A stretch of 20,433 nucleotides of DNA, from positions 1 through 20,433 of the IMG/VR virus record IMGVR_UViG_3300009605_002561. The stretch is one strand, 5' to 3'. This DNA comes from a virus. The translations under genes were made by a program, and so were the position numbers. The notes under the pieces were generated by a model. That model worked only from the letters and a program-made list of their open reading frames with translations. It was not told the DNA's origin and did no database searches. Below are positions 2,401 to 20,433 of the stretch, one piece after another; the first letter of the stretch is position 1; each line of letters begins with the position of its first letter.

Positions 2401-4008
2401 TCATCGTCTTAACTCCTCCAGTATGCTCTCGACGACGTCCCTTCGTTTTGTGAGAGCGTTGACAACTCGACGGTCGACGGTTCCTTCCGCGACCAGGTGA
2501 TAGTACGTCACAGGATGCTCCTGTCCGGGTCTGTGGACTCTCGCGAGGCTCTGCTCGTAATCTCCCAGGGAGAAGCCGATCGAGTAATAGACCGCCCGCT
2601 TCGCCCTGGTCAGATCAATCCCCAGCCCCCCGCTCGCCATCTGGACGCCCAGCAGGGAGGTCTCCTGGAGGATCGTCCCCTCGGCTGTCAGGTCTTTCCT
2701 GGATCCGCTGATCTCGCCGTACTTGATCCCCTTCATCCTGGCGACCTCCCTGATCTGCTCGAGGTCGTGACGGAATCGACAGAAGACGACGACCGGCTCA
2801 CCTGGAGGGATGTCCTCCATGATGTCCTTTAGACAGTCCCGTTTCGCCGTGTCGATCTGCTGGATCTCACCTCCGTCTTCCTTGATGTGGCCGCTGGTGA
2901 TCTGCTGGAGGCGGAGGAGTCTCACCAGGGCGTGACCTGCTGTGACCGTCCGCTTCTCGTTGACCTCGGCGATGAACTCCCTCTCCAGCTCGTCGTAGAT
3001 CCGCTGGGCCTTCGCTGAGAGAGCCACAGGGATCTCGATGTGTTGAACTTCAGGGAGGTCGAGGACATCCTCCGCCTCGACGCGGTAGGACAGCTCCCAG
3101 AGCTTCCGCTTCATCTGCTCCTCGTTGCGCCAGAAGCGGACTTGAGAGGGGAAGCGCGGATGCGTGACAGCGTACTCGTCGCGGAACCTCCCGAAGGTCG
3201 TCCCGAAGACACCAGGGTCGAGGAAGCGGAACTGCCCGAAGAGGTCGAGAGGACTGTGAGGCATCGGCGTACCGGTCAGACAGAGCCTCCTTTTGGCCTT
3301 CTCGCCGATCCTAGCGACGATCTTGGACGTCACCCCGGTCGCTGACTTGATCCTGTGGCTCTCGTCCAGGATGACCAGATCCCAATTCCTCAAGGTGACC
3401 AGGTTCGCCATCTGTCGCGACCTGATCGACTCATAGTTGACGACCAGCCAGCGGGACTTCTCCGCGTTGATCGGGGAGAGGAACTCGATCGTCTCCTTCG
3501 CCTTCCTCGCGGCTGTCCATTTGTCGAGGATCAGGATGTCGGTCTCCACCTGCTCGGGGATGTGTATGGCCAGCTCCCGGAACCAGACGCGGAGGACGCT
3601 CTTCGGACAGAGGACGAGGATCCGCTTCGCTCGCCAGTTGACCGCCAGGTCGATCGCGACCTTCGTCTTCCCTGTCCCCATGTCCATCGCCAGCAGACAG
3701 GCGTCCTTGTGCCTGGCGAAGCTGTACGCGGTCTTCTGATGGCTCCAGGGCGGGAGGACAGTCACAGACGGCTCGACCTCGAAGGCTGGAGGGCCGACCT
3801 GGGAGACCCACCTGACCGCGAGAGTCGCGATCTCCCCGGACAGCTCGAGGTCTGTCCCGCTGGACAGTTCATACGCCGCCGCCGGGGTCGCCCTGCATGT
3901 CCAGCCGTCCCCGACCCTGTGGACTCCCGGAAGCCGCCGGCAGAAGCCGGAGAGCGTCGACGGAGCGACGATCTGGATCCTCTTGTTGTCGTTGATGTAC
4001 GCTCTCAC
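2401..4008 (-). CDS. SNF2-family DNA helicase/translocase (535 aa)
   Basis: Both RecA-like lobes of an SF2/SNF2 ATPase are present. Motif I is MDMGTGKT (residues 108-115), motif II is DESH (215-218), motif III is LTGTP (244-248), motif V lies around GVQMASGGLGIDLT (454-467), and motif VI is SLARVHRPGQ (487-496). The 'HRPGQ' ending is diagnostic of SNF2 rather than DEAD-box enzymes. The first 85 residues form a separate N-terminal region that could bind DNA. Such enzymes move along double-stranded DNA using ATP and remodel forks, R-loops or bound proteins. Start is GTG 4008 with GGAAG upstream; the gene sits 15 bases after the methyltransferase stop. It is GC-rich like the bulk of the genome, unlike the other SNF2 gene at 4929-6305. 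The precise role in phage replication is inferred. Confidence 0.92.
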   Translation of the reverse strand: MRAYINDNKRIQIVAPSTLSGFCRRLPGVHRVGDGWTCRATPAAAYELSSGTDLELSGEIATLAVRWVSQVGPPAFEVEPSVTVLPPWSHQKTAYSFARHKDACLLAMDMGTGKTKVAIDLAVNWRAKRILVLCPKSVLRVWFRELAIHIPEQVETDILILDKWTAARKAKETIEFLSPINAEKSRWLVVNYESIRSRQMANLVTLRNWDLVILDESHRIKSATGVTSKIVARIGEKAKRRLCLTGTPMPHSPLDLFGQFRFLDPGVFGTTFGRFRDEYAVTHPRFPSQVRFWRNEEQMKRKLWELSYRVEAEDVLDLPEVQHIEIPVALSAKAQRIYDELEREFIAEVNEKRTVTAGHALVRLLRLQQITSGHIKEDGGEIQQIDTAKRDCLKDIMEDIPPGEPVVVFCRFRHDLEQIREVARMKGIKYGEISGSRKDLTAEGTILQETSLLGVQMASGGLGIDLTRAKRAVYYSIGFSLGDYEQSLARVHRPGQEHPVTYYHLVAEGTVDRRVVNALTKRRDVVESILEELRR

Positions 4009-4023
4009 CCTGTGGCTTCCATG

Positions 4024-4941
4024 TTAGAAAAGTCTCTGCTCCTGAGTTGATTTCTCTGCCGCTCGCATATTCCTTCTGGCGACCTTGAAATATGACTCCT
4101 TTAACTCAAAGCCTACAAAACGACGTCCTGATTTGACGGCGACATGGCCTGTTGATCCAATCCCAGAGAATGGATCGAGGACGGTGTCTCCCGGATTGCT
4201 CCATAGCTGGACGCATCTCTCTATCACTTCCAGTTGAAGCGGGCAAATGTGCCTCTCGTCCCGGCCATCTCGGGCGGTCGTAAATTGTAGCGTGTTGCTC
4301 TGATTGATGTCGCTCCAAATCGGCGATGCGTACCGCTGCCAGATGTCGATTGACAGTCTGCCTGTTTGCTTGAATGTCGACTTGTCTCCGACCCATCGAT
4401 CCAACTCGCCCTCAACAGGCTCAGGATTATCGCCCGGCTTTCTGAATGTGCAGACGTAATCAGGAAGTGCCATCCGAGAGCGGGTCGAATCCTTGCATAG
4501 CTGTTTATGCAATAGCCCGAGAGACTTTGTTCTCTGCATTTGAGTAACTGGATCCTTCCAGATCGCCACCTCAGAATGATAGATGAATCCTGCATCGGTG
4601 AACGATCTGATGATGTCCCCCCTGAAGTCCTTCAATCCGATGTATCCGTCATGAGTCATTGTCGCTGGTAGATTCATGCAATGCACAGAACACAGTCGAC
4701 CAGGCATGGTAACTCGATGGAGTTCTGCGATCAGGTAGGAGAAGTGTTGCGAGAACTCATCATAATTCTGACAGTTCCCCATGTCGCGATCGGAGGCTGA
4801 ATAGGTGTAGAGGGAGGCAAATGGTGGCGAGAACATTGAGTAATGAATTGTTCCGTCCCCCAGGTCACCGATTCCCTCGACACAGTCACACTGATATAAG
4901 GCCCACTGATCCGCAGTCTGTTGATCGATTACTTTAGCCAT
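4024..4941 (-). CDS. DNA methyltransferase, N6-adenine/N4-cytosine type, beta class
   Basis: The catalytic motif SPPF is at residues 38-41 and the SAM-binding motif DPFSGIGSTG at 256-265. That order, catalytic motif first and SAM motif last, defines the beta class. The ending 'GRRFVGFELKESYFKVARRN' is the usual helix-strand after the SAM site. SPPF occurs in both N4-cytosine and N6-adenine enzymes, so the base cannot be decided here. The region between, around residues 130-235, would hold the target-recognition part. There is no adjacent restriction nuclease, so it is an orphan enzyme: protection from host restriction or marking of phage DNA are the likely roles. Its start overlaps the end of the helicase gene by 13 bases, with GAGG upstream. 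Both genes share lower GC than their neighbours, suggesting they moved as a pair. Confidence 0.92.
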   Translation of the reverse strand: MAKVIDQQTADQWALYQCDCVEGIGDLGDGTIHYSMFSPPFASLYTYSASDRDMGNCQNYDEFSQHFSYLIAELHRVTMPGRLCSVHCMNLPATMTHDGYIGLKDFRGDIIRSFTDAGFIYHSEVAIWKDPVTQMQRTKSLGLLHKQLCKDSTRSRMALPDYVCTFRKPGDNPEPVEGELDRWVGDKSTFKQTGRLSIDIWQRYASPIWSDINQSNTLQFTTARDGRDERHICPLQLEVIERCVQLWSNPGDTVLDPFSGIGSTGHVAVKSGRRFVGFELKESYFKVARRNMRAAEKSTQEQRLF

Positions 4942-6305
4942 GTTGGTATCCTCATTGTCTGGCGAGGTTCATAATCCTCGCGGTGTCTCTCTTGGCGACC
5001 TATCTCCGCACTCGTGATCTCGCTCATTGCCTCAACGATCCCTCGAACTAAACGATTATGTTCTGCCTCTTTGCGTTTAATGTTCGCCAGAATTGATCCA
5101 TCGCGGTCAGACATGATCAGGTGGACATTCACCTCGCTCCGTTGCCCGAATCGCCAACAGCGGCGAACAGCCTGATAATACTGCTCGAATGAATGCGACA
5201 TTCCGAGGAATGCGACATCCGAACAATGCTGCCAGTTTAGACCATGCCCCGCGATTGATGGCTTCGTAATAATGACTCGCTTATCACCATTTCCGAAGGC
5301 GTGGAGTGCAGCTTCTTTGTCTTCATTATCCATGCTACCGAAGACCTCGACGCCATCTGGGATCGCCTCGCTCGATGCTCTCGATTCGTCATTAAGATTA
5401 CACCATATAACCCACGGCTCTCCATTTTGATTCGCCAGGTCAGAAACAATCGAGACACGGTCACTGATTGAACTTCGGCGGACTGCTCGCTGCTCATTTA
5501 ACGTGATGGCGTCATTTTGAAACAGGAAGCCATCGGGGATGTCTGTTGAGACGATATGCTCGTGGACATTCAGATCTGGCAGGATGTACCCATCATCTGA
5601 GTAACCGAGATCGCTCGGCTTATTCAACATCACGCACCAGGAAGCCATCCACTCAAAGAACTTAAACTCTGCATGACGCTTCACCCGCCATTTTGACGTG
5701 TCGCCTCCATCGTGTATGAACCAGGTGGACAGCATCTCCGATCTCGTCATCACTCCGAGGAATTCAGCATAACTACCGATCTCCATTACATCATTTGGTG
5801 ATGGAGTCGCCGTCAGTGCATATCGATATGGAGTATGTTGGAATGAATCGATTAATGCCTGGCGAGTTTTACCTCCGAATGTCTTGAGGATGCTGGCCTC
5901 GTCCAAGGCGACTCCGATGAACTCTTCGATGTCGAACTTGTGGAGCTTATCGTAGTTTGTAACCGTAATCCCATCGACGACATCCGCAGCCGAGGATGCC
6001 ACAGCCACCGGGACTGAGATGCTGAACTTGTCAGCCTCTCTCACAGTCTGCGCACTCACAGCCAGCGGCGTCAGGATCAGGAACTTGCCGCCTGTCTTCT
6101 TTACGATTTCTTCACCGATCACGAGTTGCTGGAGTGTCTTCCCGAGGCCAGTGTCAGGGAACAGGCCAGCTCTGCCGCGACGTAAAGCCCATCGAACGAC
6201 GTCTGCCTGCCACTCAAACAGATGCTCGTTCAACGGCCCTGGATCAAAGCCTGATGACTTATCCGCCTTGGCCTTCGATTTTACGAAGTGTCGATATTTC
6301 ATCAT
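4929..6305 (-). CDS. SNF2-type helicase paired with the methyltransferase (458 aa)
   Basis: The protein shows motif I as DTGLGKT (residues 51-57), motif II as DEAS (135-138), motif III as TATP (165-168) and motif VI as QAVRRCWRFGQ (378-388). It is an ATP-driven DNA translocase of SF2/SNF2 type, shorter than cellular members. It has a 30-residue basic N-terminus and a charged C-terminal tail. 'DEAS' in place of DEAH/DEGH is common in phage members. Two Met codons open the frame (MMKYRH), preceded by GGAGGAGGCGAC; the first overlaps the CsrA-like gene's stop as ATGA. Base use is distinctly more AT-rich than in the flanking genes, as in the next gene, the methyltransferase. I remember helicase plus orphan methyltransferase neighbours from other phages, but the joint function is not established here. 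Confidence 0.9.
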   Translation of the reverse strand: MMKYRHFVKSKAKADKSSGFDPGPLNEHLFEWQADVVRWALRRGRAGLFPDTGLGKTLQQLVIGEEIVKKTGGKFLILTPLAVSAQTVREADKFSISVPVAVASSAADVVDGITVTNYDKLHKFDIEEFIGVALDEASILKTFGGKTRQALIDSFQHTPYRYALTATPSPNDVMEIGSYAEFLGVMTRSEMLSTWFIHDGGDTSKWRVKRHAEFKFFEWMASWCVMLNKPSDLGYSDDGYILPDLNVHEHIVSTDIPDGFLFQNDAITLNEQRAVRRSSISDRVSIVSDLANQNGEPWVIWCNLNDESRASSEAIPDGVEVFGSMDNEDKEAALHAFGNGDKRVIITKPSIAGHGLNWQHCSDVAFLGMSHSFEQYYQAVRRCWRFGQRSEVNVHLIMSDRDGSILANIKRKEAEHNRLVRGIVEAMSEITSAEIGRQERHREDYEPRQTMRIPTWLK

Positions 6306-8664: not shown

Positions 8665-8943
8665 CCCTTCCTCCAGAAGATCAGGTGTTTCAGATAACCC
8701 AGGAGGCCGACAGCCTCGAGTCCCTGGCTCTCCAGGAACTCCTTCAGCTTGACCACCTCCTCGCACCGGCTCGCCCTGATGAAGACCCGCCGAGGTTCCC
8801 CCCGCTTGATATATCTCGTTCTGATGCCCAGCATCCCATCCCCTCCATTGTTGAAGCATTGAAAAAACAGCGGCCCGCCTCTGGAACTCCATTGCCATAA
8901 CAGGCGGAACCGCCTCCGGCTTCCTTGCCTTTTTATACATCAT
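8509..8943 (-). CDS. Possible longer reading (144 codons) over the two small genes
   Basis: ATG ATG at 8943/8940 follows an excellent GGAGGAGGCTC, and the first ATG overlaps the previous stop as ATGA, exactly the coupling used elsewhere. The frame begins MMYKKARKPEAVPPVMAMEF and has no stop until 8509, so it would end with the DPRY protein. Its middle third has the Gly-rich composition of a shadow of the 8661-8834 gene. Either this is a real protein with dual-coded DNA, or the 8943 start is unused. Confidence 0.3.
   Translation of the reverse strand: MMYKKARKPEAVPPVMAMEFQRRAAVFSMLQQWRGWDAGHQNEIYQAGGTSAGLHQGEPVRGGGQAEGVPGEPGTRGCRPPGLSETPDLLEEGMTDPRYFENSGQGEYQDRIEAALRREAELSDPRYLDEIQAGRDAQGEEADE
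8661..8834 (-). CDS. 57-residue basic protein nested in another open frame
   Basis: A frame from ATG 8834 to TGA 8663-8661 encodes a basic protein. It begins MLGIRTRYIKRGEP, has a helical centre (CEEVVKLKEFLESQGLEAVG) and ends 'LIFWRKG'. GGAGGGG lies just upstream of the start, and the stop overlaps the next start as ATGA. Third codon positions are mostly G or C, as in the neighbouring real genes, while the competing frame over the same DNA reads Gly-rich and shadow-like. I do not recognise the family. Confidence rests on ribosome-binding site, coupling and codon pattern. Confidence 0.6.
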   Translation of the reverse strand: MLGIRTRYIKRGEPRRVFIRASRCEEVVKLKEFLESQGLEAVGLLGYLKHLIFWRKG

Positions 8944-9209
8944 GAGCCTCCTCCGACTAGCCCCTTGATCTTCTCGACCCAGTCGCCGATCCCGCCGCCT
9001 CCGGCCATCTTCGAGCCGAAGTAGATCACCGCCAGGGCGATCAGCCCCCACTTGATCAGCGAGACGAGAGCCTTCCGCTTCTCGCTCTTGGCGAGGGCCA
9101 GGGTCGCCTTGCTCTCGATGCGCGAGAGCTTGTAGTCCCGCTTGTCCTGCTTCTTGCTTTCGTCCGGGACGACAGGTATCTCGTCGCTGTCTCTCCTACG
9201 CTTTCCCAT
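8940..9209 (-). CDS. Small membrane protein with basic cytoplasmic N-terminus
   Basis: This 89-residue protein has a highly charged first half (MGKRRRDSDE to KSEKRKA). It then has one hydrophobic helix (LVSLIKWGLIALAVIYFG, about residues 49-66) and ends with a Gly-rich hinge and a short amphipathic helix (DWVEKIKGLVGGGS). GGAGG lies 9 bases before ATG 9209; a longer frame to 9248 reads through the upstream gene with shadow composition. The start overlaps the upstream gene by 14 bases. Single-pass proteins of this type in a lysis region may be holin partners or spanin-like, but I cannot assign it. Confidence 0.7.
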   Translation of the reverse strand: MGKRRRDSDEIPVVPDESKKQDKRDYKLSRIESKATLALAKSEKRKALVSLIKWGLIALAVIYFGSKMAGGGGIGDWVEKIKGLVGGGS

Positions 9210-9420
9210 TGTTGCTGACCTCCGTCGTCGAGGACTTCCCGGATACACTCCTGTAACTGTCTCCTAGTATCAAGGCGATGATCATCCCGCTGATCGCGAG
9301 CGTCTGCTCCTGGGCCATCCCCATCTCGTCGCCCCAGGCGACCAGGCCAGCCCCGAGAGCCGCCGCGAGGATCCGCTTCGATTTCGCCGAGACGAGAACG
9401 TCAATTAACCAGTCTTTCAT
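9196..9420 (-). CDS. Putative holin, two hydrophobic segments
   Basis: The 74-residue protein has two hydrophobic segments, ILAAALGAGLVAWG (about residues 17-30) and TLAISGMIIALILGDSY (about 40-56). They are joined by a short turn containing an acidic 'DEMG' and followed by a polar tail. This layout, beginning 'K(S)KRIL' and having 'MAQEQTLAISGMI' before the second helix, resembles small phage membrane proteins usually annotated as holins. ATG 9420 has GGAGGGAAG upstream. It is the first gene of the membrane-protein row after the tail genes, the normal place for lysis genes. A holin role is inferred from size, topology and position. Confidence 0.65.
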   Translation of the reverse strand: MKDWLIDVLVSAKSKRILAAALGAGLVAWGDEMGMAQEQTLAISGMIIALILGDSYRSVSGKSSTTEVSNNGKA

Positions 9421-9433
9421 CTTCTTCCCTCCA

Positions 9434-10273
9434 CTACTTCGCCTTCGTTGCAGACCAGCGGGCTGGGTAGTCCGCCTCGACAATAGAAGAGACCGTCACG
9501 CTCTCGGGATCGTATACGAACGCTCCCTCGTTGAGCTTCAAGCTCGAGACCGTGACATTCAGCCCTCCCTGGGAGACGTCCAGCTCCCCGCCCTGGATGA
9601 CCGCCGAGGCGATCGTCCCGGTTGAATTGTGGATCAGGCGACCGCCCCAGAGGGTGACGCTCGACGAGATCGCCGCTGCCTCTGTTGTCTTCACTGTCCC
9701 GCTCCGGATGTCCATGTCGGCGCAGCTCGCCCGCGTCGTCAGCTTCGCCCCGGATCCGACGTCGATATTCGTGACAGTTGTCCCGGATCCGACGACAGTC
9801 CTCCCTCCCAGACAGCGGAGCGTCGTGATTGTCGCGGTGTCAGCAGGATCCCCGACAGCGATCCCGACCTTCCCGCCCTCGACAGCCAGGACATCGATCC
9901 CCGTCCCCTTGATCGTCAGGCCGTAGGATCCCACAGCAGCCGACGCTGTACTGTGGATTGTCATATTGACAGCCGAGCCGCCGATGTCGAGATGTGACTC
10001 CCCGGATCCGGAGAATTCGATCCTCCCGCTGGTATCGGTGATCCCGATCCTGAAGGGGGAAGTCCGGGATCCGATCGTCCCGGTGTATGAACTTTCCACG
10101 ATGAAGGCGTCCACATCCACGCTCGACCAGTCCAGGCCGTCGTCGATGTTCTGGCTCCCTCGGATGTATACGTCATCGCCCGCCACAGGGGCCGCGCCTC
10201 CGGCCCAGTTTAAGGCCGTATTAAAGTTCCCCTCCGATCCGCCTGTCCCGCCTACCCATAATTTAACAGCCAT
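9434..10273 (-). CDS. Beta-solenoid virion protein, possible tail fibre or host-binding protein
   Basis: The 279-residue protein begins 'MAVKLWVGGTGGSEGNFNT', continues 'ALNWAGGAAPVAGDDVYI', and then consists of repeating short beta-strand units rich in Ser, Thr, Gly and Val (for example 'GGRTVVGSGTTVTNIDVGSG'). This is typical of right-handed beta-helix or passenger-domain-like stalks. The opening W-x-GGTG...W motif is familiar from phage proteins and from bacterial surface proteins with beta-strand repeats. No catalytic motif is visible. It starts one base inside the upstream gene (TAATG) with AAGGAGACT upstream. As the last large gene of the tail module, receptor binding or decoration is likely by position. 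Confidence 0.65.
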   Translation of the reverse strand: MAVKLWVGGTGGSEGNFNTALNWAGGAAPVAGDDVYIRGSQNIDDGLDWSSVDVDAFIVESSYTGTIGSRTSPFRIGITDTSGRIEFSGSGESHLDIGGSAVNMTIHSTASAAVGSYGLTIKGTGIDVLAVEGGKVGIAVGDPADTATITTLRCLGGRTVVGSGTTVTNIDVGSGAKLTTRASCADMDIRSGTVKTTEAAAISSSVTLWGGRLIHNSTGTIASAVIQGGELDVSQGGLNVTVSSLKLNEGAFVYDPESVTVSSIVEADYPARWSATKAK

Positions 10274-11655
10274 TAGAGTCTCCTTCTTTTGTGGATCCGC
10301 TCCAGCGTCTCCAGGATTGCTTGATTGTTAGTCCGCTTGACCCGATCGGCGACCTCTCTCGCCTCCTGGGAGTGTTCCTCGTAGTTGTCCAGGTGCATCC
10401 GGAGGACTCTCGCGATGTCGTCCGGGCTGTCCGGGTCGGCCTTCCAGCTCGCCGGGAGATATCTCACCGCCGAGGATCCGACGACAGGACGCCCCTGGAT
10501 CAGATGCTCCAGAGCGATGTAGTTGAAGGACTCCGAGAAGCTCGCCTGGAGTCCGACAGCGATCCGCTCGCCGATCAGCCTGTTCCAGTCCGACCAGCTA
10601 CCCCAGGGGGGGAACTCCACCTCCAGGCCGATCGACTCGGCGAAGGACTGGGCTGACTGTCTTCCTCGCTTATCTTTTACAATCATCAGACCCCGGACTC
10701 CCGCCAGCTTCATCGCCATCAGTTGTTGAAGTTGATTTTTGACGATATGCCAGCGGCCTACAAGAGAGACTAGGGGGGCGTCCAGGTCGACCTCCACAGG
10801 GGACGACTCCGGGATCGTCACGACGTTCGGGAACCAGAGACACCGCTGGAGGCCGAGCCTGGTGAAGATATCCCGCTCGTCGACATGGCCAAAGATCACA
10901 TTCTCCTGATCCTGAGCGAGCTGGATCGTCCCGGCCTGCTGGCTCATCCATGCCTCGTTGGACTGGGTGTATGCGTGAGAGCTGTGATTGACCGAGACGA
11001 AGGTGGTCTCAGGGAAGTCACCGGCGAGCTGCTCGACCACTCCGACGTCCACCAGGAACGCCCGATTGATCAGGATCCCCGGCCTGGTCAGCCGGATCAC
11101 CTTCGCGATCTCGTCCCTCAAGATTGACGCGTAATTCCATCCCTTCCTCGGGGAGCTTGACTTTACCAGGGCGACGACGGCCCGGATCCCGTTCGCCCGG
11201 AGAAAGTCGGCGACATGGATCCCGCGCGTCTCGACCCATAATGTATTCGAGCTTTTTGGGAAGATCATCACCAGGTCGACAGGCTGTCCGTCCCAGTCAG
11301 GGAGGAACCTCGGATTCTCCTCCCAGCGTCCGATGGGACACTCCTGATCAGCCCAGGCGAGCTTGTTCAGGAACCTCCGGGAGTTCACCAGACAGCCACA
11401 CTTCAGACAGGTCGAGCCTGTGAAGAACTCACACCGCCGACAGACCCCGAGCCGATGGTCGATCTCACCCTGGTCGGCTGTCGGGGATCCCCTGACGACA
11501 TGGCTGATCGCCGCCTTCGTGAAGGAGAAAGCCCTGGCCGCGAGGCTGATCTTCTCCGGATTCCCGGAGTCGTAGCCGCAGGAGCAGCGGACAGGGAAGT
11601 CCGCTTCGTCCATCGGGACGACGATCTCGCAGTTCGGACAGCTCCACTCGATCAT
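10273..11655 (-). CDS. Glycosyltransferase (GT-B/GT4-like) with N-terminal zinc-binding Cys clusters
   Basis: The 460-residue protein has two N-terminal Cys clusters, C6-C9-C24-C26 and C72-C75-C83-C86-C88-C106, both with zinc-ribbon spacing ('CRRC...CLKCGC...CP'). Residues about 125-460 follow a two-lobe GT-B plan. The second lobe opens with 'LVSLVGRWHIVKNQLQQL' (the usual 'GR..K(n)qlll' strand-helix). Near residue 372 it carries 'SFSESFNYIALEH' and 'GRPVVGSS', matching the E-x7-E sugar-nucleotide motif of GT4 enzymes. It would transfer a sugar from a nucleotide donor; donor and acceptor are unknown. It lies between structural genes and overlaps the previous stop as ATGA, so a virion protein may be the acceptor, or host surface sugars changed on infection. 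Confidence 0.8.
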   Translation of the reverse strand: MIEWSCPNCEIVVPMDEADFPVRCSCGYDSGNPEKISLAARAFSFTKAAISHVVRGSPTADQGEIDHRLGVCRRCEFFTGSTCLKCGCLVNSRRFLNKLAWADQECPIGRWEENPRFLPDWDGQPVDLVMIFPKSSNTLWVETRGIHVADFLRANGIRAVVALVKSSSPRKGWNYASILRDEIAKVIRLTRPGILINRAFLVDVGVVEQLAGDFPETTFVSVNHSSHAYTQSNEAWMSQQAGTIQLAQDQENVIFGHVDERDIFTRLGLQRCLWFPNVVTIPESSPVEVDLDAPLVSLVGRWHIVKNQLQQLMAMKLAGVRGLMIVKDKRGRQSAQSFAESIGLEVEFPPWGSWSDWNRLIGERIAVGLQASFSESFNYIALEHLIQGRPVVGSSAVRYLPASWKADPDSPDDIARVLRMHLDNYEEHSQEAREVADRVKRTNNQAILETLERIHKRRRL

Positions 11656-13529
11656 AGGGCGGTAATCCTGACTGATGACTCATCGTGTACACACTCCAGA
11701 TAGTCATCGTTAAAGCAGGCATCATGCTTTCCGATCAGCCATTGTCCAGGCGGCTTGTTTTCGTGCCAGGTCTGATTTGTCGAATGGAATGGAAGCTCCA
11801 TATCGAATATCGATAAGCAATCGGGCTTTGTTTGGAAGTCCCTCCTCCAATAAGTGTAATCTCTATTACATCGATCGACGGTTCCGCACGTCGGGCCAGA
11901 ATTCCAGGCGATACTGAGAGGATTGATATGGAGAAGTGATACGAAGTGATTTGTTCCGTCATGACCGATCTGGAGCAAGTAGACGTGCTGCGCCCCATAC
12001 GGGCCACAACTGAAAGATCCATTTGGAGCGTCGGCCTCCCAGCGACACTCTGTGTCTGTGCTCATTGTCTTGGAGAGGATGAAAGTTCCGTTGATGTCAC
12101 ACTCACACTCACAATCAGGACAGGCACCGGATCCTGAATCGTCCGGGGTGCCGGGACAATCCCATCGGTTCACCTCCTGCGTCCCAGCCCCCGGCGAGAA
12201 TCCAGAGACCGCGACCTTGAAAAGCGACGGAGCGACGTCGCCTTCGCAAGCTCCACAGAATTCCTCATCGATGCAGCTTGGGCAGTCCATGTCGTCTGAG
12301 TTTTTTGCTCTCTGCCAGATGAAATAGTCGAAGGTGACGATCGAGCTGTTCCCGGATCCCGTCCCGAGAGCGGCCTTGTCACCGCCGTAGGGGGTCGTTA
12401 CGGCGTCCAGGTGAAGCTGATCCCCGACAACTCCGGAACCCGAAACGGAATGGATGTCTGTTTCGATATAGACATCTTGAAGACAGACTGTGAAGTTCCA
12501 ATCGACCCCCGGCTGGATCACCTTGACAACCGTCGCGAGGACTGTCGTTCCCTTGAGAAGCTCCACCTTCCCGAAGCCTGGGGCGGGCGCCGAGACGCCG
12601 CAGGTAATTTGTAAAGCGTGGGAGTTACTTCCGTCCACGTCCAGCATCATCCGCGCAACATCTCCCAGCGCATCGGTATCGAACGGCCCAGTCCCGAAGC
12701 GGACAGTCCCTCCGATGATCCCGTACTCAGGCCGAAAGTTCGTCATCGTCGTCGTCGCCTGGGCCGACGCGCTCGAGGTCACCAGCTCGTTGTCGTCGAT
12801 CTCCCAGGATCCGCTGGTCTCCGTCCAGTTGCATCCCAGATCAGTCGAGTCGGCCCTGGTGAAAGCATCTTCCAGGAGGAGACAGGTCGATCCCTTGCAA
12901 TCAGGACAGCTCCCTTGATCCTTCTTACTTTTGTTCCACTCGAAGCTCTCGAAGCTCGCCGACCCGCTCGAGGTCAGCGTCCCCGTCCCCAGTCCCACCT
13001 GGTCGCCTGTCGCCGTGATGGACGACTCGCAGAACGTCCAGGAGTGAGAGCCGTCAGAGAGTGACAGCTTCACACATAGCTCCCCGCCGTCGTTTGGATA
13101 GGTGTCATCCTGGAAGCAGACCTCGAGACGATAGTCCGTCCCCGTCGCCAGGATCCCGATCTTCCTGGTGTCCCCGACCTGAGAGGTCGACCCGCCGACC
13201 CGCTCGAAGAACTTGATCTCCGAACAGTCGGAGGTGTTGATCATCAGCTCCACAGACAGATAGTCATCGGCTGAGTCATAAGCGACGACCCCCCGGATCT
13301 TGCTCTCGGTGTCCGACACTTGCCCCAGGACGCTGATGTGGTGTGAGCTGGATTCCTCGGGGTGATCTGTCGCGAAGATCGCCAAGGCGTCCGAGTCGCT
13401 GGTCTCGAGGCGGTTCGAGGAGATCGCCCAAGTCCCCGCGACCTGAGTCCAGCCCGCCCCCACGCTCGCCCGATCGAACTCGTCCGAGGCGATGTCACAA
13501 CCAGTACAGCAACAGGGGAAGCCAGGCAT
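11652..13529 (-). CDS. Large Cys-rich virion protein with tandem LamG-like domains
   Basis: This 625-residue protein starts MPGFPCCCTGC. It then has two copies of a jelly-roll-type domain (about residues 14-200 and 218-410). Each copy opens with the same signature: 'DEFDRASVGAGWTQVAGTW' and, in the second, 'DAFTRADS...CNWTETSGSW'. Such LamG/concanavalin-like folds often bind sugars. Cys pairs between and after the domains (CPDC, CPSC, CGAC, CPDCECEC) and a Cys-rich C-terminal third (about 415-625) could bind metal or form disulfides. The gene starts directly after the previous stop without a clear ribosome-binding site, so it depends on coupling. In a tail module it fits an adsorption or baseplate protein. 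Family resemblance to planctomycete phage genes is from memory. Confidence 0.7.
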   Translation of the reverse strand: MPGFPCCCTGCDIASDEFDRASVGAGWTQVAGTWAISSNRLETSDSDALAIFATDHPEESSSHHISVLGQVSDTESKIRGVVAYDSADDYLSVELMINTSDCSEIKFFERVGGSTSQVGDTRKIGILATGTDYRLEVCFQDDTYPNDGGELCVKLSLSDGSHSWTFCESSITATGDQVGLGTGTLTSSGSASFESFEWNKSKKDQGSCPDCKGSTCLLLEDAFTRADSTDLGCNWTETSGSWEIDDNELVTSSASAQATTTMTNFRPEYGIIGGTVRFGTGPFDTDALGDVARMMLDVDGSNSHALQITCGVSAPAPGFGKVELLKGTTVLATVVKVIQPGVDWNFTVCLQDVYIETDIHSVSGSGVVGDQLHLDAVTTPYGGDKAALGTGSGNSSIVTFDYFIWQRAKNSDDMDCPSCIDEEFCGACEGDVAPSLFKVAVSGFSPGAGTQEVNRWDCPGTPDDSGSGACPDCECECDINGTFILSKTMSTDTECRWEADAPNGSFSCGPYGAQHVYLLQIGHDGTNHFVSLLHINPLSIAWNSGPTCGTVDRCNRDYTYWRRDFQTKPDCLSIFDMELPFHSTNQTWHENKPPGQWLIGKHDACFNDDYLECVHDESSVRITAL

Positions 13530-14324
13530 TTATGTACAGTCGAGCTGGATCAGCTCCCACCTTTCGAGGCCGATGTGATTATTCCAGACGACCAGGGCGT
13601 TCGCGCCATCACTCCCGGCCCAGGCGAAAACATTGTGAGCCGTCAGGCTGTCTGTGTCGAGGTGCTGGATCCCGTCCATCGGGACGAGGTTGTCGACAGT
13701 TATCGAGGCGGTCGAGTCCGTCAGCTCCCCGTCCAGGGTGACTCGATACATCGAGGCGAACTTGGAGCGGAAGTTCCCCAGCAGAGCCAGGCACCACTGA
13801 ACGCCCGTCTCCCCGGCCTTGTGCCAGAGGATCGACGCTCCACTCTCCCCGGATGTCCAGCTCTTTAGGCTGGTCGTGTTCCCATGTCGGACGATCGCGA
13901 TGTCGTCGTAGTTATTAACGATGTTTACCTGGACAGGCGTCAGGCCCGCCACCTTCGCCCATCCGATCGCACCGCTCCTGATCGGCTCCTGGACGACCGC
14001 GACCTTCGCCACATGCCGCCCGTAATTTAAGGCCGACGTCCTGACAGGAGCCTCCGCCTCGAAGGTCGGGCGAGAATAGAAGCTCTGGGCGTTGTCTTCG
14101 TGGCTGATCACCATCTCGCCGAGGCCGACGACGTTGAAGCGGTCGAAGGCGTTCGATGTGGCATTCCTGACCCTGACCGTCCCCTCGTACCTGGATGACT
14201 TGAGCGGATCCGATCCGATCCCACGAAGATGTCCCTGAAAAGCCTGGGCCGCGTCGACCATTGCGTTGTAGGTGGACGCGGGGATCTGCAGCGGCTGACC
14301 CGGTTGGACTTTCTCGATCGGCAT
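13530..14324 (-). CDS. Virion structural protein, tail module, function unassigned
   Basis: The 264-residue protein begins 'MPIEKVQPGQPLQIPASTYN', with a helix ('AMVDAAQAF') that may be a packing segment. It then becomes mainly beta with repeated hydrophobic strands ('HVAKVAVVQEPI', 'GWAKVAGLTPVQVNIV') and ends in 'LERWELIQLDCT'. The 'VQPGQPLQIPA..YNA' opening recurs in phage structural proteins from memory. There are no catalytic motifs. It is preceded by AAGGGGACGAG nine bases after the previous stop and is followed immediately by the LamG-like gene. A role as a baseplate or distal tail component is inferred from position. Confidence 0.65.
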   Translation of the reverse strand: MPIEKVQPGQPLQIPASTYNAMVDAAQAFQGHLRGIGSDPLKSSRYEGTVRVRNATSNAFDRFNVVGLGEMVISHEDNAQSFYSRPTFEAEAPVRTSALNYGRHVAKVAVVQEPIRSGAIGWAKVAGLTPVQVNIVNNYDDIAIVRHGNTTSLKSWTSGESGASILWHKAGETGVQWCLALLGNFRSKFASMYRVTLDGELTDSTASITVDNLVPMDGIQHLDTDSLTAHNVFAWAGSDGANALVVWNNHIGLERWELIQLDCT

Positions 14325-17571: not shown

Positions 17572-18282
17572 GGTCACCTCCCGCGAGCTGTTTCAGTAAG
17601 TCGAAGCCCGCTCTCTTGTCTGTAACTGGTTTACTCTTCTTCTGTTCCTGGTTGTATGGATGGAAGTCGCTCGGCGCGAAGACCTTGGAATTTTTGCCCC
17701 GGTTCACGTTCGCGATCAGGCTCATAACGGCGGAGGTGTGATTCCAGAGAGCCATCTGATGACCGTTCATCATCCAGAACAACTCTCGGAGAGTCAGGGG
17801 GAGGGGATCGACTCCGACAGATCCGGCGATCTCCCAGACGAGCCTCCATCCTCTGCTGCGTTGATCACCTCCTCCACTATCTCCTCCGCCGTCTTGCTGC
17901 TGATCAGATCCTCCGCCCTGGTCATCAGGAGAGCTTCCGCCTCCTCCATCTTGTCCAGGGCCATCCGGAGGACTTTCCGCTTCCGGGGCGGGAAAAAATC
18001 CACGATCTCGTCCAGGAGGGCTTCCGTCGCCGACCCGATCGCCTCGCCCGCCATCGACTCACCGAAGTCCTCGTCCGTGATGTTGTTTCTCTCCGCCTGG
18101 TCACTGACCAGGACGAAGATCACATCACAGAGGAGGACAGGATCGATCGCCAGGCGTCCGACCATTTCGCCGACATCCTCAGACAGTAGATCGAAGCTGA
18201 CCGCGTCCTTGACCTTCTTCGCTGTTGCGATATTCAGGGAGAGCGTCCAGCTCCTCTCTTTATTGTCTGTGAATTGTTTCAT
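17228..18282 (-). CDS. Tail assembly chaperone, -1 frameshift extended form (G-T type)
   Basis: The -1 frame after the slippery heptamer (17992-17998) is open to 17228 and has no ATG, GTG or TTG before 17782. Yet it encodes a conserved-looking segment: 'WEIAGSVGVDPLPLTLREL', then 'MALWNHTSAVMSLIANVNR', then 'APSDFHPY'. From memory that is the standard text of the second tail-chaperone frame in such phages. A Gly/Asp/Gln-rich linker joins it to the first part. The fusion would have about 351 residues with the shorter N-terminus. Its last 110 or so codons overlap the gp10-like gene and look like shadow sequence, so the functional end is uncertain. In lambda-type phages the extended form recruits the tape measure and tube proteins. 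Confidence 0.7.
17794..18282 (-). CDS. Tail assembly chaperone (G-type), unshifted form
   Basis: The 162-residue helical, acidic protein begins MKQFTDNKERSW, continues with 'TLSLNIATAKKVKDAV', and has 'FFPPRKRKVLRMALDKMEEA' after the slippery site. Tail chaperones of tailed phages sit exactly between tube and tape measure genes and keep the tape measure soluble before tail assembly. I prefer ATG 18282, which overlaps the tube gene stop as TGATG, to GTG 18300 six codons upstream, because 'MKxFTDN.gR.W' is the familiar family opening. Neither has a strong ribosome-binding site. Residues D95-F96-F97 are encoded by the slippery site; ribosomes that do not slip finish at 17794. Confidence 0.8.
   Translation of the reverse strand: MKQFTDNKERSWTLSLNIATAKKVKDAVSFDLLSEDVGEMVGRLAIDPVLLCDVIFVLVSDQAERNNITDEDFGESMAGEAIGSATEALLDEIVDFFPPRKRKVLRMALDKMEEAEALLMTRAEDLISSKTAEEIVEEVINAAEDGGSSGRSPDLSESIPSP
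17965..17998 (-). promoter_or_regulatory. Programmed -1 frameshift signal in the tail chaperone gene
   Basis: The minus strand reads T TTT TTC at 17998-17992, in the exact X-XXY-YYZ phase relative to the chaperone frame (codons GAT TTT TTC). Five bases later a hairpin can form: CCGGA (17986-17982) pairs with TCCGG (17969-17965), with an inner GGA/TCC stem and an AAG loop. The downstream -1 frame holds conserved coding text without its own start. Confidence 0.75.
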
Positions 18283-18722
18283 CAGGAAACTGTCAGCCAC
18301 TCCGGGGTGTTTGCGGACTTGGTGATCTTGAGCGAGATGTCGACCATCAGAGCCTCCTCGAGAGCTTCGCTCCTGGAGAAGTTCGTGACAGAAAAGTCAG
18401 CGTGAAGTCCCTGGGATCCCGTCGTCGCGATCAGGCCGTCCATGAAGGCCATCTCGACGGACGTATTCGCAAAAAATGCGGTCTGCAGGGCCGTGAATTC
18501 TGCGTCAGCAGTATCCCAGACCATCTGAAAGTCCACAGAGCCGTCCTTCAGCGTCGCGACCGACTGGCGGAAGCCGCCGCCGCCCCTGGTCGTGACATCC
18601 GCGTCACCGGCTTCCAGGTTGATCGTGACGTCCTTCAGGTTGTCGATGAGACTCCACGTGGCGGAAGTCCAGGTTCCCGTGTTTCTGTATGCTTTCGCGT
18701 CTAATCCTAATACAAGAGCCAT
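18282..18722 (-). CDS. Major tail tube protein
   Basis: The 146-residue protein is mostly beta strands with one central helix, as in siphovirus tube proteins. It has 'LIDNLKDVTINLEAGDADVT' and the sequence 'TRGGGGFRQSVATLKDGSVD' followed by 'FQMVWD', which together form the usual tube signature of a charged loop followed by a strand. The C-terminal 'EALEEALMVDISLKITKSA' is a typical closing helix-strand. It forms the stacked hexamer rings of the tail. It starts at ATG 18722 a few bases after the previous stop with AGGTAGAG upstream, and ends overlapping the chaperone gene. Its position before the chaperone and tape measure supports the call. Confidence 0.85.
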   Translation of the reverse strand: MALVLGLDAKAYRNTGTWTSATWSLIDNLKDVTINLEAGDADVTTRGGGGFRQSVATLKDGSVDFQMVWDTADAEFTALQTAFFANTSVEMAFMDGLIATTGSQGLHADFSVTNFSRSEALEEALMVDISLKITKSANTPEWLTVS

Positions 18723-18726
18723 TGCT

Positions 18727-19146
18727 CTACCTCACCTTTCTAAAATTGACCTCGAGCGATGCGAGGAACTCGCGCCGCTCCTGTAAAACGTCTGGATCAA
18801 AAAGAGGCGAGTGATCCGTCCGGATCCATGTCGCCCCGCTGTGACCTGTAAAGTCCAGGCCGTCCTTCATCTCTTCGACCAGGTCGAGCATCCCGTCCAG
18901 GTCGCTCGTCGAGTCCGGGTCGACCGGCTTCCTGATCCCGATCATGATCGTGTAGTCGTGTTGATTCCTGGAGCGGGACTCCAGGCTGATCTCCTCGTCA
19001 GCGGCCCAGACGGTGACATCCAGACCGGCGAGATCCTCGAGAGCGAAGCGGGGGAGAGCGACTCGGGTCGCGGTGAAGGACTGGCTGAGTGATAACCCAT
19101 TCAGGGCGGAGACCAGACCATCAGCGATGTCGCCGATCACGCTCAT
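18727..19146 (-). CDS. Tail terminator/neck protein
   Basis: The 139-residue protein has an N-terminal helix ('VIGDIADGLVSALNGL'), strands ('DVTVWAADEEISLE'), a central 'QHDYTIMIGIRKPVD' strand, an acidic helix ('LDGMLDLVEEMKDGL') and a closing strand ('EFLASLEVNFRKV'). This alpha-beta order matches tail terminator or tail-completion proteins that cap the tail and connect it to the head. ATG 19146 overlaps the previous stop as TGATG. It lies between the head-closure gene and the tube gene, where the terminator is expected. Assignment to a named family is uncertain. Confidence 0.65.
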   Translation of the reverse strand: MSVIGDIADGLVSALNGLSLSQSFTATRVALPRFALEDLAGLDVTVWAADEEISLESRSRNQHDYTIMIGIRKPVDPDSTSDLDGMLDLVEEMKDGLDFTGHSGATWIRTDHSPLFDPDVLQERREFLASLEVNFRKVR

Positions 19147-19523
19147 CAATTCACCTGCTTCGTATGGACTCTGAGGATCTGCCGGTGTGGATCCGAAAAG
19201 GAATAGTGCCGCGAGCCGCCGAGAGCCATGACAGGGAAGGTGACCTCCTCCCCTGCCACAGTCTCGCGTATCTCGTCGCCTCTTTTCGGCCTGACTCTCT
19301 CGCCTCCGATCTTGAGATCCTCGGCCAGGACGAGGTAATCCCTCGCCGTGTGGCTCTCGTAGATCCCGCCGCTCGTCTCCGTCTCGTAATCCGTAGAGCC
19401 AGGGACGGCTGTCAGGTCGACAACGTCGTCTCCTCGGACATAACGGATCGACACTCCGCCCGTCGAAGCGAGCGTCTGGAACGATTGGACTAGGATGTCG
19501 GCGATAATAGTCAAGGTCGTCAC
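19146..19523 (-). CDS. Head-closure/head-tail connector protein
   Basis: The 125-residue protein shows a beta-rich core: 'GGVSIRYVRGDDVVDLTAVP', then 'ARDYLVLAEDLKIGGERVRP' with 'KRGDEI' after it, and the ending 'SFSDPHRQILRVHTKQV'. These are recurrent landmarks of head-closure or neck proteins downstream of the capsid gene. It starts at GTG 19523, eight bases after the capsid stop, and ends overlapping the next gene as TGATG. Its job would be to seal the portal and receive the tail. The family call rests on gene position plus pattern memory, not on a catalytic motif. Confidence 0.65.
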   Translation of the reverse strand: MTTLTIIADILVQSFQTLASTGGVSIRYVRGDDVVDLTAVPGSTDYETETSGGIYESHTARDYLVLAEDLKIGGERVRPKRGDEIRETVAGEEVTFPVMALGGSRHYSFSDPHRQILRVHTKQVN

Positions 19524-19531
19524 CGCTTCCG

Positions 19532-20433
19532 CTAACTCAAGAGAGCTTCAGTTTCCGATAGGCTGTCCGTGACAACAATCGGAATTCCGAAGGCCGAATC
19601 TGGGAACGCAGCAGGGGCACCACTCGGTGACGTTGCTGTCCGGGAAGCCTGCAATTGTTGCAAGCTCCGTCGGTTCATCGCCATGAAGCTCGGCCCGCGT
19701 CCTGCGGGGAACTTGCTGATCGCCTGAGAGATCAGGGCGTCAGATAGTCCCTTTCCGCTGTCCTCGGTGATGTTGCAGATCCGCCCGAGCGAATAAGCTC
19801 CGCCGACCTGGAGACCACACCAGGAGGTTATCGGGGTGTAGTACGCCGGGTAGGATCCAGTCGAGGATCCGGCGAACTTCTGGATCGTTGTCTCGCCGAC
19901 ATCGATCACGCCGTTCTGACCCCAGACCACATGAACGTCCGAGATCCCGGTATTGACCAGGTACACACTCGAGGCCGTGTCTGCTGTCGTTCCCGCCGCG
20001 TTGACGTTCATCGCTCCGCCGATGTGACCGGTCGTCTGGTCGGCCATCGCGTCGAAGCCGTTGGCGTTGTCACCGTTGAGGATCTCGTCCTCGGCTTTTG
20101 CCATCGCCGATCGAAGGTGATCGATAGCCTGGGTGCCGAGCATCGCAGACCATCCACGCTCGTCGCTCTGGGCGACCGCGACATCCACGCCGAAGGAGGC
20201 GTCGAGGATCGCCAGGGTGACCGTCACGGTCGAGTAAGTCCCGAGGTTCAGGTCTCGCCCGTCGTTCTCAGTCCGGAAGCCGGTCGTCGGATTTGCTGTC
20301 CGCTTGAGGTATTTGTAGGTATAACCGGCGATCGATCGCGCGGCTAAACGAGCCAGAACCGGCGCGTCGTCGAGGACGTCGCTGATGATCCCGACATCCA
20401 GATCGGAGTCGTTGAATTTAGTGACCTCTGCGG
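19532..20433 (-). CDS. Major capsid protein, N-terminus cut by window edge
   Basis: The frame is open from the right edge to TAG 19534-19532, about 299 residues, so only the first residues are missing. It contains 'LDDAPVLARLAARSIAGYTY', 'TGFRTENDGRD', 'VTVTLAILDASFGVDVAVAQ', 'YPAYYTPITSWCGLQVGGAY', 'ICNITEDSGKGLSDALI' and 'MNRRSLQQLQASRTATSPSG'. I recognise this text as a major capsid family of tailed phages, presumably HK97-fold, seen in planctomycete-type prophages. A GTG at 20227 looks like a start but is inside the conserved region, so it is not the real start. The protein forms the icosahedral shell. It is followed at once by the head-closure gene, confirming the head-to-tail order. Confidence 0.85.
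   Translation of the reverse strand, partial: AEVTKFNDSDLDVGIISDVLDDAPVLARLAARSIAGYTYKYLKRTANPTTGFRTENDGRDLNLGTYSTVTVTLAILDASFGVDVAVAQSDERGWSAMLGTQAIDHLRSAMAKAEDEILNGDNANGFDAMADQTTGHIGGAMNVNAAGTTADTASSVYLVNTGISDVHVVWGQNGVIDVGETTIQKFAGSSTGSYPAYYTPITSWCGLQVGGAYSLGRICNITEDSGKGLSDALISQAISKFPAGRGPSFMAMNRRSLQQLQASRTATSPSGAPAAFPDSAFGIPIVVTDSLSETEALLS

Follow-up and report, generated by a model that had tools for sequence, protein, structure and literature searches.

Why does a phage carry a glycosyltransferase gene with two N-terminal Cys clusters, tightly joined to tail genes on both sides, and what does its product modify? We examined this question for one gene, whose product we refer to as P0001, in a viral stretch of 20,433 nucleotides (the window; IMG/VR record IMGVR_UViG_3300009605_002561). 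An earlier note, made from the sequence alone, had suggested that the product modifies a virion protein and that the zinc part serves for docking. Our own reading, on which we find the scales evenly balanced, is that an active GT4 enzyme glycosylates one of the tail proteins, with the Cys-rich neighbour as the most likely target, and that the zinc part acts as an adaptor. The features on which the argument draws are as follows.

8940-9248, minus strand: small protein, with a homologue downstream of the L256 glycosyltransferase
9196-9483, minus strand: small protein, holin-like by reading only, with a homologue downstream of the L256 glycosyltransferase
9434-10273, minus strand: beta-solenoid-like protein of 279 aa, putative fold
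10273-11655, minus strand: glycosyltransferase gene (P0001), 460 aa, ATG start
10276-11286, minus strand: GT4 (GT-B) domain of P0001, residues 124-460, predicted from the AlphaFold2 model and fold matches
10507-10533, minus strand: EX7E motif of P0001, E375 to E383, from aligned glycosyltransferases
11323-11550, minus strand: Cys cluster 2 of P0001, residues 36-111, a DUF6171/phrog_13558-like module
11572-11646, minus strand: Cys cluster 1 of P0001, residues 4-28 (CPNC...CSCG), zinc-ribbon-like
11652-13529, minus strand: Cys-rich protein of 625 aa, two repeated halves, putatively LamG-like, and a Cys-rich C-terminus
13530-14324, minus strand: tail-cassette gene P3, 264 aa
14334-15275, minus strand: tail-cassette gene P2, 313 aa
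15287-17116, minus strand: tape measure protein
L332, 408-1427: Cys-rich upstream ORF of the L274 lineage

The arrangement of the gene proved to be as the earlier note had described it. Two Cys clusters and a GT4-like region, which takes a GT4 fold in the model, lie in one 460-aa ORF, and the gene is coupled to both neighbours: its ATG shares ATGA (11652-11655, minus strand) with the TGA of the LamG-type gene, and its TAA overlaps the ATG of the next gene (TAATG at 10273). It is also embedded among tail genes, with the tape measure, P2 and P3 upstream, in a gene order kept in other phages. Matches to PF06199 (tail tube), PF25138 (head-tail joining) and a GP7-type capsid at 18282-20227 (minus strand) confirm the structural module of the window. 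Because an independent virus record, IMGVR_UViG_3300009604_000042, encodes the same P0001 protein (its DNA is 99.85% identical to the window across 17,035 bases), the gene is not an assembly artefact. With tblastn, whole P0001 had no match in phages, and its glycosyltransferase part had none in phages and plasmids.

The glycosyltransferase region was assigned largely through its predicted structure. Pfam gave no glycosyltransferase match for P0001 at E<=1, TIGR04047 and Glyco_trans_1_4 matched weakly (E 0.0027, and E 0.2 with a P0001 fragment as query), and the relatives at L256 and L234 scored 26.7 and 26.4 bits against a Pfam cut-off of 27. An AlphaFold2 model built from a 72-row alignment had a mean pLDDT of 88.2; a single-sequence model (pLDDT 34) was discarded. 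Fold matches to the alignment-based model, which cover residues 124-460 with the Cys part outside, include TarM (PDB 4x7r; Z 27.0, rmsd 3.1 over 315 residues, 14% identity), BshA (Z 26.1) and SdgB (PDB 7vfm, in complex with UDP and an SD peptide; Z 24.5 over 320 residues). MshA, GlgM and BshA held the top Foldseek ranks, and the BFVD matches, mostly glycosyltransferases or unnamed or uncharacterised proteins, added no function. As modelled, the domain has the GT-B fold expected of GT4, and its nearest solved structures are GT4 enzymes. SdgB shares this fold but differs in being bacterial and 13% identical to P0001; it is a protein GlcNAc transferase with UDP-GlcNAc as donor and is not known to carry a Cys module. 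TarM, among the best fold matches, has teichoic acid and not protein as its substrate.

Viral relatives of the enzyme, recovered by a motif pattern and a profile (L256 at 315 bits, L234 at 204 and L274 at 143, then L327 and L330/L331), point to the gene immediately upstream as a recurrent partner. This gene is Cys-rich in the window, L327, L330/L331, L274 (on L332) and L256, that is, in 5/5 lineages with the upstream gene in hand, mostly as the LamG-like-repeat type; the L256 gene is shorter than the LamG-like-repeat genes of the other lineages. L234 differs: its glycosyltransferase has portal, capsid and fibre-like genes as neighbours (by reading only). The two halves of the window protein are repeats of each other (E 2.5e-8), and 0/200 shuffles of its first half match any sequence of the set at 1e-3. 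Its similarity to the proteins of L330 (E 5e-8), L327 (E 9e-7) and L332 (E 1e-3) is low but real; comparison with the L256 protein gave no significant similarity (E 0.49), and that protein is tied in through L327 (E 5e-5). The solenoid-like gene on the other side is matched by homologues in L327 and L330, at E about 1e-37, in L331 and, by profile, on L328, the L256 contig (E 1.7e-80), in varying positions. At L274 a sulfotransferase-like ORF (L274:1558-2127; PF00685 E 3.9e-4, below the cut-off) extends over the stop codon of the zinc-GT4 gene.

How general is this tail setting? Relatives of P2 occur at no fewer than 589 viral loci (>=589), and among the best 80 of these a tape measure is present in 80/80, P3 in 74/80 and a zinc module in 4/80, with a Cys-rich tail-type protein before the module in 3/4 of the last. 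Free zinc proteins directly follow the Cys-rich protein in L505 and L480, and do so after a short gap in L507. No glycosyltransferase was found in the L505 cassette, where a double-Cys protein stands behind the Cys-rich one. At L443 the zinc ORF shares an overlap with P3, and behind it come glycosyltransferase-like genes, two with Pfam GT2 matches, one of them weak and in an ORF that also has a radical SAM part. That ORF (L443:7161-8549), a single frame that matches radical SAM and, weakly, GT2-type families, is followed by YD/Rhs-like repeats. Three in-house glycosyltransferase profiles matched at 1/80 cassette loci and at 0/106 Cys-module loci, the latter zeros being weak because the profiles are narrow and missed the L443 glycosyltransferases. 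The LamG and beta profiles matched at none of the 80 loci, and neither gene is thus a general part of the cassette.

The region downstream of P2 appears to be a hot spot for sugar-modifying genes, judging from the Pfam families in 134 ORFs from 56/80 loci: 15 methyltransferases, 10 Gly_transf_sug, three each of GT1, GT2 and GT25, and two sulfotransferases. Hint/intein-type domains occur in eight ORFs downstream of P2 in L430-L508.

This uptake of many sugar and methyl enzymes could have brought in late cargo, a moron whose product changes a surface glycan or a cell-wall polymer of the host, with receptor masking or superinfection exclusion as the outcome. We regard such a role as possible but doubtful. 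It would suit the TarM-like fold, and the one strong P0001 glycosyltransferase homologue in 392 Planctomycetota genomes (L370, E 4.9e-56, without a Cys part) lies away from tail genes, next to recombinase-like and transposase-like genes (by reading). Against it stand the overlap of the P0001 gene with tail genes on both sides and the pairing with a Cys-rich gene, kept in five lineages.

A tail protein is, in our view, the likely substrate of P0001, and precedent exists. Virion glycosylation by phage-encoded glycosyltransferases has been reported for mycobacteriophages, with glycans on capsid and tail-tube subunits (Freeman et al. 2023, Cell Host Microbe, as cited in PMC12619734, PMC11256854 and PMC13313380); the glycosyltransferases of Maravista are encoded close to the 3' end of its genome (PMC11256854). 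Phage virion glycosylation is thus already known, and P0001 would be a variant of that kind. As would be expected of a virion-glycosylating enzyme, its gene lies among virion genes, downstream of the tape measure, P2 and P3. Both systems use phage-encoded glycosyltransferases, whereas the zinc module and the coupling to a Cys-rich tail gene, both present in P0001, go unmentioned in the parts of those sources consulted. The P0001 arrangement was not found in a literature search that covered titles and abstract starts, with subscription papers and preprints outside its scope.

What, then, does the zinc part contribute? Cluster 1 has the pattern C6-x2-C9...C24-x-C26, and cluster 2 reads C72-x2-C75, C83-x2-C86-G-C88, C106. 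Cluster 2 matches phrog_13558 (E 3.7e-7) over positions 10-68 of the 69-position profile, most of its length, as membership of that family demands; we call it only DUF6171-like, since P0001 scores 21.5 bits against DUF6171 (PF19668), under the curated cut-off of 27. A literature search for DUF6171 found no paper that names this family. From these patterns the N-terminal Cys part is predicted to bind zinc.

The docking role proposed by the earlier note for this part would fit the cassette but not the module at large. Among relatives of the enzyme, L274 has the same order as P0001 (ribbon, Cys module, GT4), so that the domain pair does recur in another phage; the glycosyltransferases of L256, L327, L330 and L331 combine a ribbon with a shorter CGGC module, and L234 has a glycosyltransferase of the P0001 family without any Cys part. 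A P0001-like N-terminus precedes cluster 2 in L004, L040, L274 and L505, and in L004, L040 and L505 ribbon and cluster 2 occur without a glycosyltransferase. Occurrence as a free protein (L505) or with other glycosyltransferase folds is what an adaptor within the cassette might show. The module is not specific to glycosyltransferases, however, and most viral copies are free-standing: in one scan 75/75 other viral Cys-module ORFs were small free proteins of up to 143 aa, and of 27 loci matched in another search, 26/27 align over the Cys region alone. The phrog_13558/PF19668 proteins, like cluster 2 in sequence, are in that viral scan mostly free-standing, in contrast to the fusion in P0001. A Cys-rich gene preceded the module in 6/85 such loci with a loose filter. 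In the cassette loci a loose Cys-rich filter picked up spurious frames, and the counts there rest on reading of the ORFs. Free modules also occur in known cyanophages and Stenotrophomonas phages, next to lysis genes, 2OG oxygenases or fibres; in the cyanophages Sf-FS3 (L035) and S-SSM7 (L038) the module overlaps or adjoins 2OG-Fe(II) oxygenase genes, near sugar epimerases. Since most copies of the module stand free, at a distance from glycosyltransferases, an adaptor role fits the cassette and not the whole module family.

Bacterial genomes provide further cases of the association. A first scan of genome contigs with the zinc part as query found no relative; a zinc-motif scan of genome contigs placed 11/13 loci in Planctomycetota, by name or by genus and order, and a Cys-module profile matched 18/392 Planctomycetota genomes in 24 places. 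A homologue of window P2 or P3 was found in the fetched stretch at 10/24 of these places (8/22 as an independent count, L389 and L391 having helped to build the P2/P3 profiles) and a tape measure homologue at 8/24, each vs 0/16 control regions; the cassette is absent from the other 14/24. At these prophage-like loci the order with the tail genes is kept: L389 has tape measure, P2 and P3 (E 2e-48, 2e-43 and 2e-22 to the window proteins), the zinc protein, a GT2 (E 4.9e-9) and a last gene that matched nothing in Pfam and that we take to be sulfotransferase-like from its motif. In L391, a GT9 (E 4.6e-8) with a C-terminal zinc module directly follows a tail gene. Among the 118 ORFs lying no more than 2.5 kb from one of these 24 places (those over 1000 aa removed), GT2 matches occur in 8/118 and GT9 matches in 2/118, and 118 control ORFs (of 149 selected) had no glycosyltransferase among the best 25 of 151 families. 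Seven Planctomycetota chromosomal zinc-module clusters (L393, L394, L398, L400, L403, L407 and L408) lie outside the phage cassette and have very Cys-rich proteins by reading; several have glycosyltransferases, and L394 has Rhs-like repeats.

These loci bear on a second alternative, that the module is a small late phage protein with an unrelated role, joined to the glycosyltransferase by chance and docking nothing. Its wide occurrence as small free proteins, and its lysis, oxygenase or fibre neighbours in known phages, are what such an origin would leave. A chance join nevertheless seems to us on the unlikely side, since the module is separately joined or adjacent to GT4 (window, L274), to GT9 (L391, L392) and to GT2 (L069, L072, L389), the L069 and L072 proteins being GT2-type with the module at the C-terminus, beside Cys-rich genes in L393 and L394. 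The free ribbon-and-module protein behind the Cys-rich protein of L505, in the same cassette, also speaks against it.

Residue conservation speaks for an active enzyme. H224, K306, N277 and E375 are invariant in 51/51 aligned viral glycosyltransferases and position 383 is E in 9/51 and D in 42/51, although the search pattern for most alignment rows already contained E375 and E/D383, so that the independent evidence is H224, K306 and N277 only. Loss of the E375/E383-type residues, which the earlier note had named as a sign of an inactive enzyme, did not occur: both are present in P0001. Sequence and model together support well an active GT4 produced with the tail. An inactive domain serving as a sugar-binding tail part, in keeping with LamG-like and solenoid-like neighbours that may themselves bind sugars, is very improbable given that H224, K306, E375 and E/D383 are each kept in all of these enzymes. 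Glycosylation of phage DNA, a role known for some phage glycosyltransferases (PMC12619734) and conceivable beside a DNA methylase gene at 4024-4941, can be largely dismissed, because the coupling is to tail genes, with the DNA genes some 5 kb away, and no pyrimidine-modifying gene was recognised among the window genes searched. That N6/N4 DNA methylase gene (minus strand) is flanked by SNF2-type helicases at 2401-4008 and 4929-6305 (minus strand).

In the tail-protein model that we prefer, P0001 would be a catalytically competent GT4-type (GT-B) enzyme, expressed late from the tail operon, that moves a sugar from a nucleotide-sugar onto a tail protein. The most likely target, or else partner, would be the Cys-rich LamG-type protein whose gene comes immediately before (11652-13529). 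The N-terminal Cys ribbon and the DUF6171-like module would bind zinc and serve as an adaptor for the Cys-rich protein or the tail cassette, so as to place the catalytic domain at its target. Since the cassette and zinc modules recur in Planctomycetota genomes, the window phage probably infects a member of this phylum.

A broader proposal is one that we put forward tentatively and hold to be rather unlikely as a whole: that Planctomycetota phages have a tail-glycosylation slot in which a Cys-rich tail protein is paired with a zinc adaptor that stands alone or takes on swappable GT4, GT2 or GT9 enzymes, followed in some cases by sulfotransferases, such that an enzyme swap would switch the sugar coat of the tail while the adaptor stays. 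Should the zinc part dock glycosyltransferases of different folds on a tail protein, tail glycosylation would have a general adaptor. A common family of small phage proteins (DUF6171) would then gain a suggested function, and a simple pull-down could test the target of many phage glycosyltransferases.
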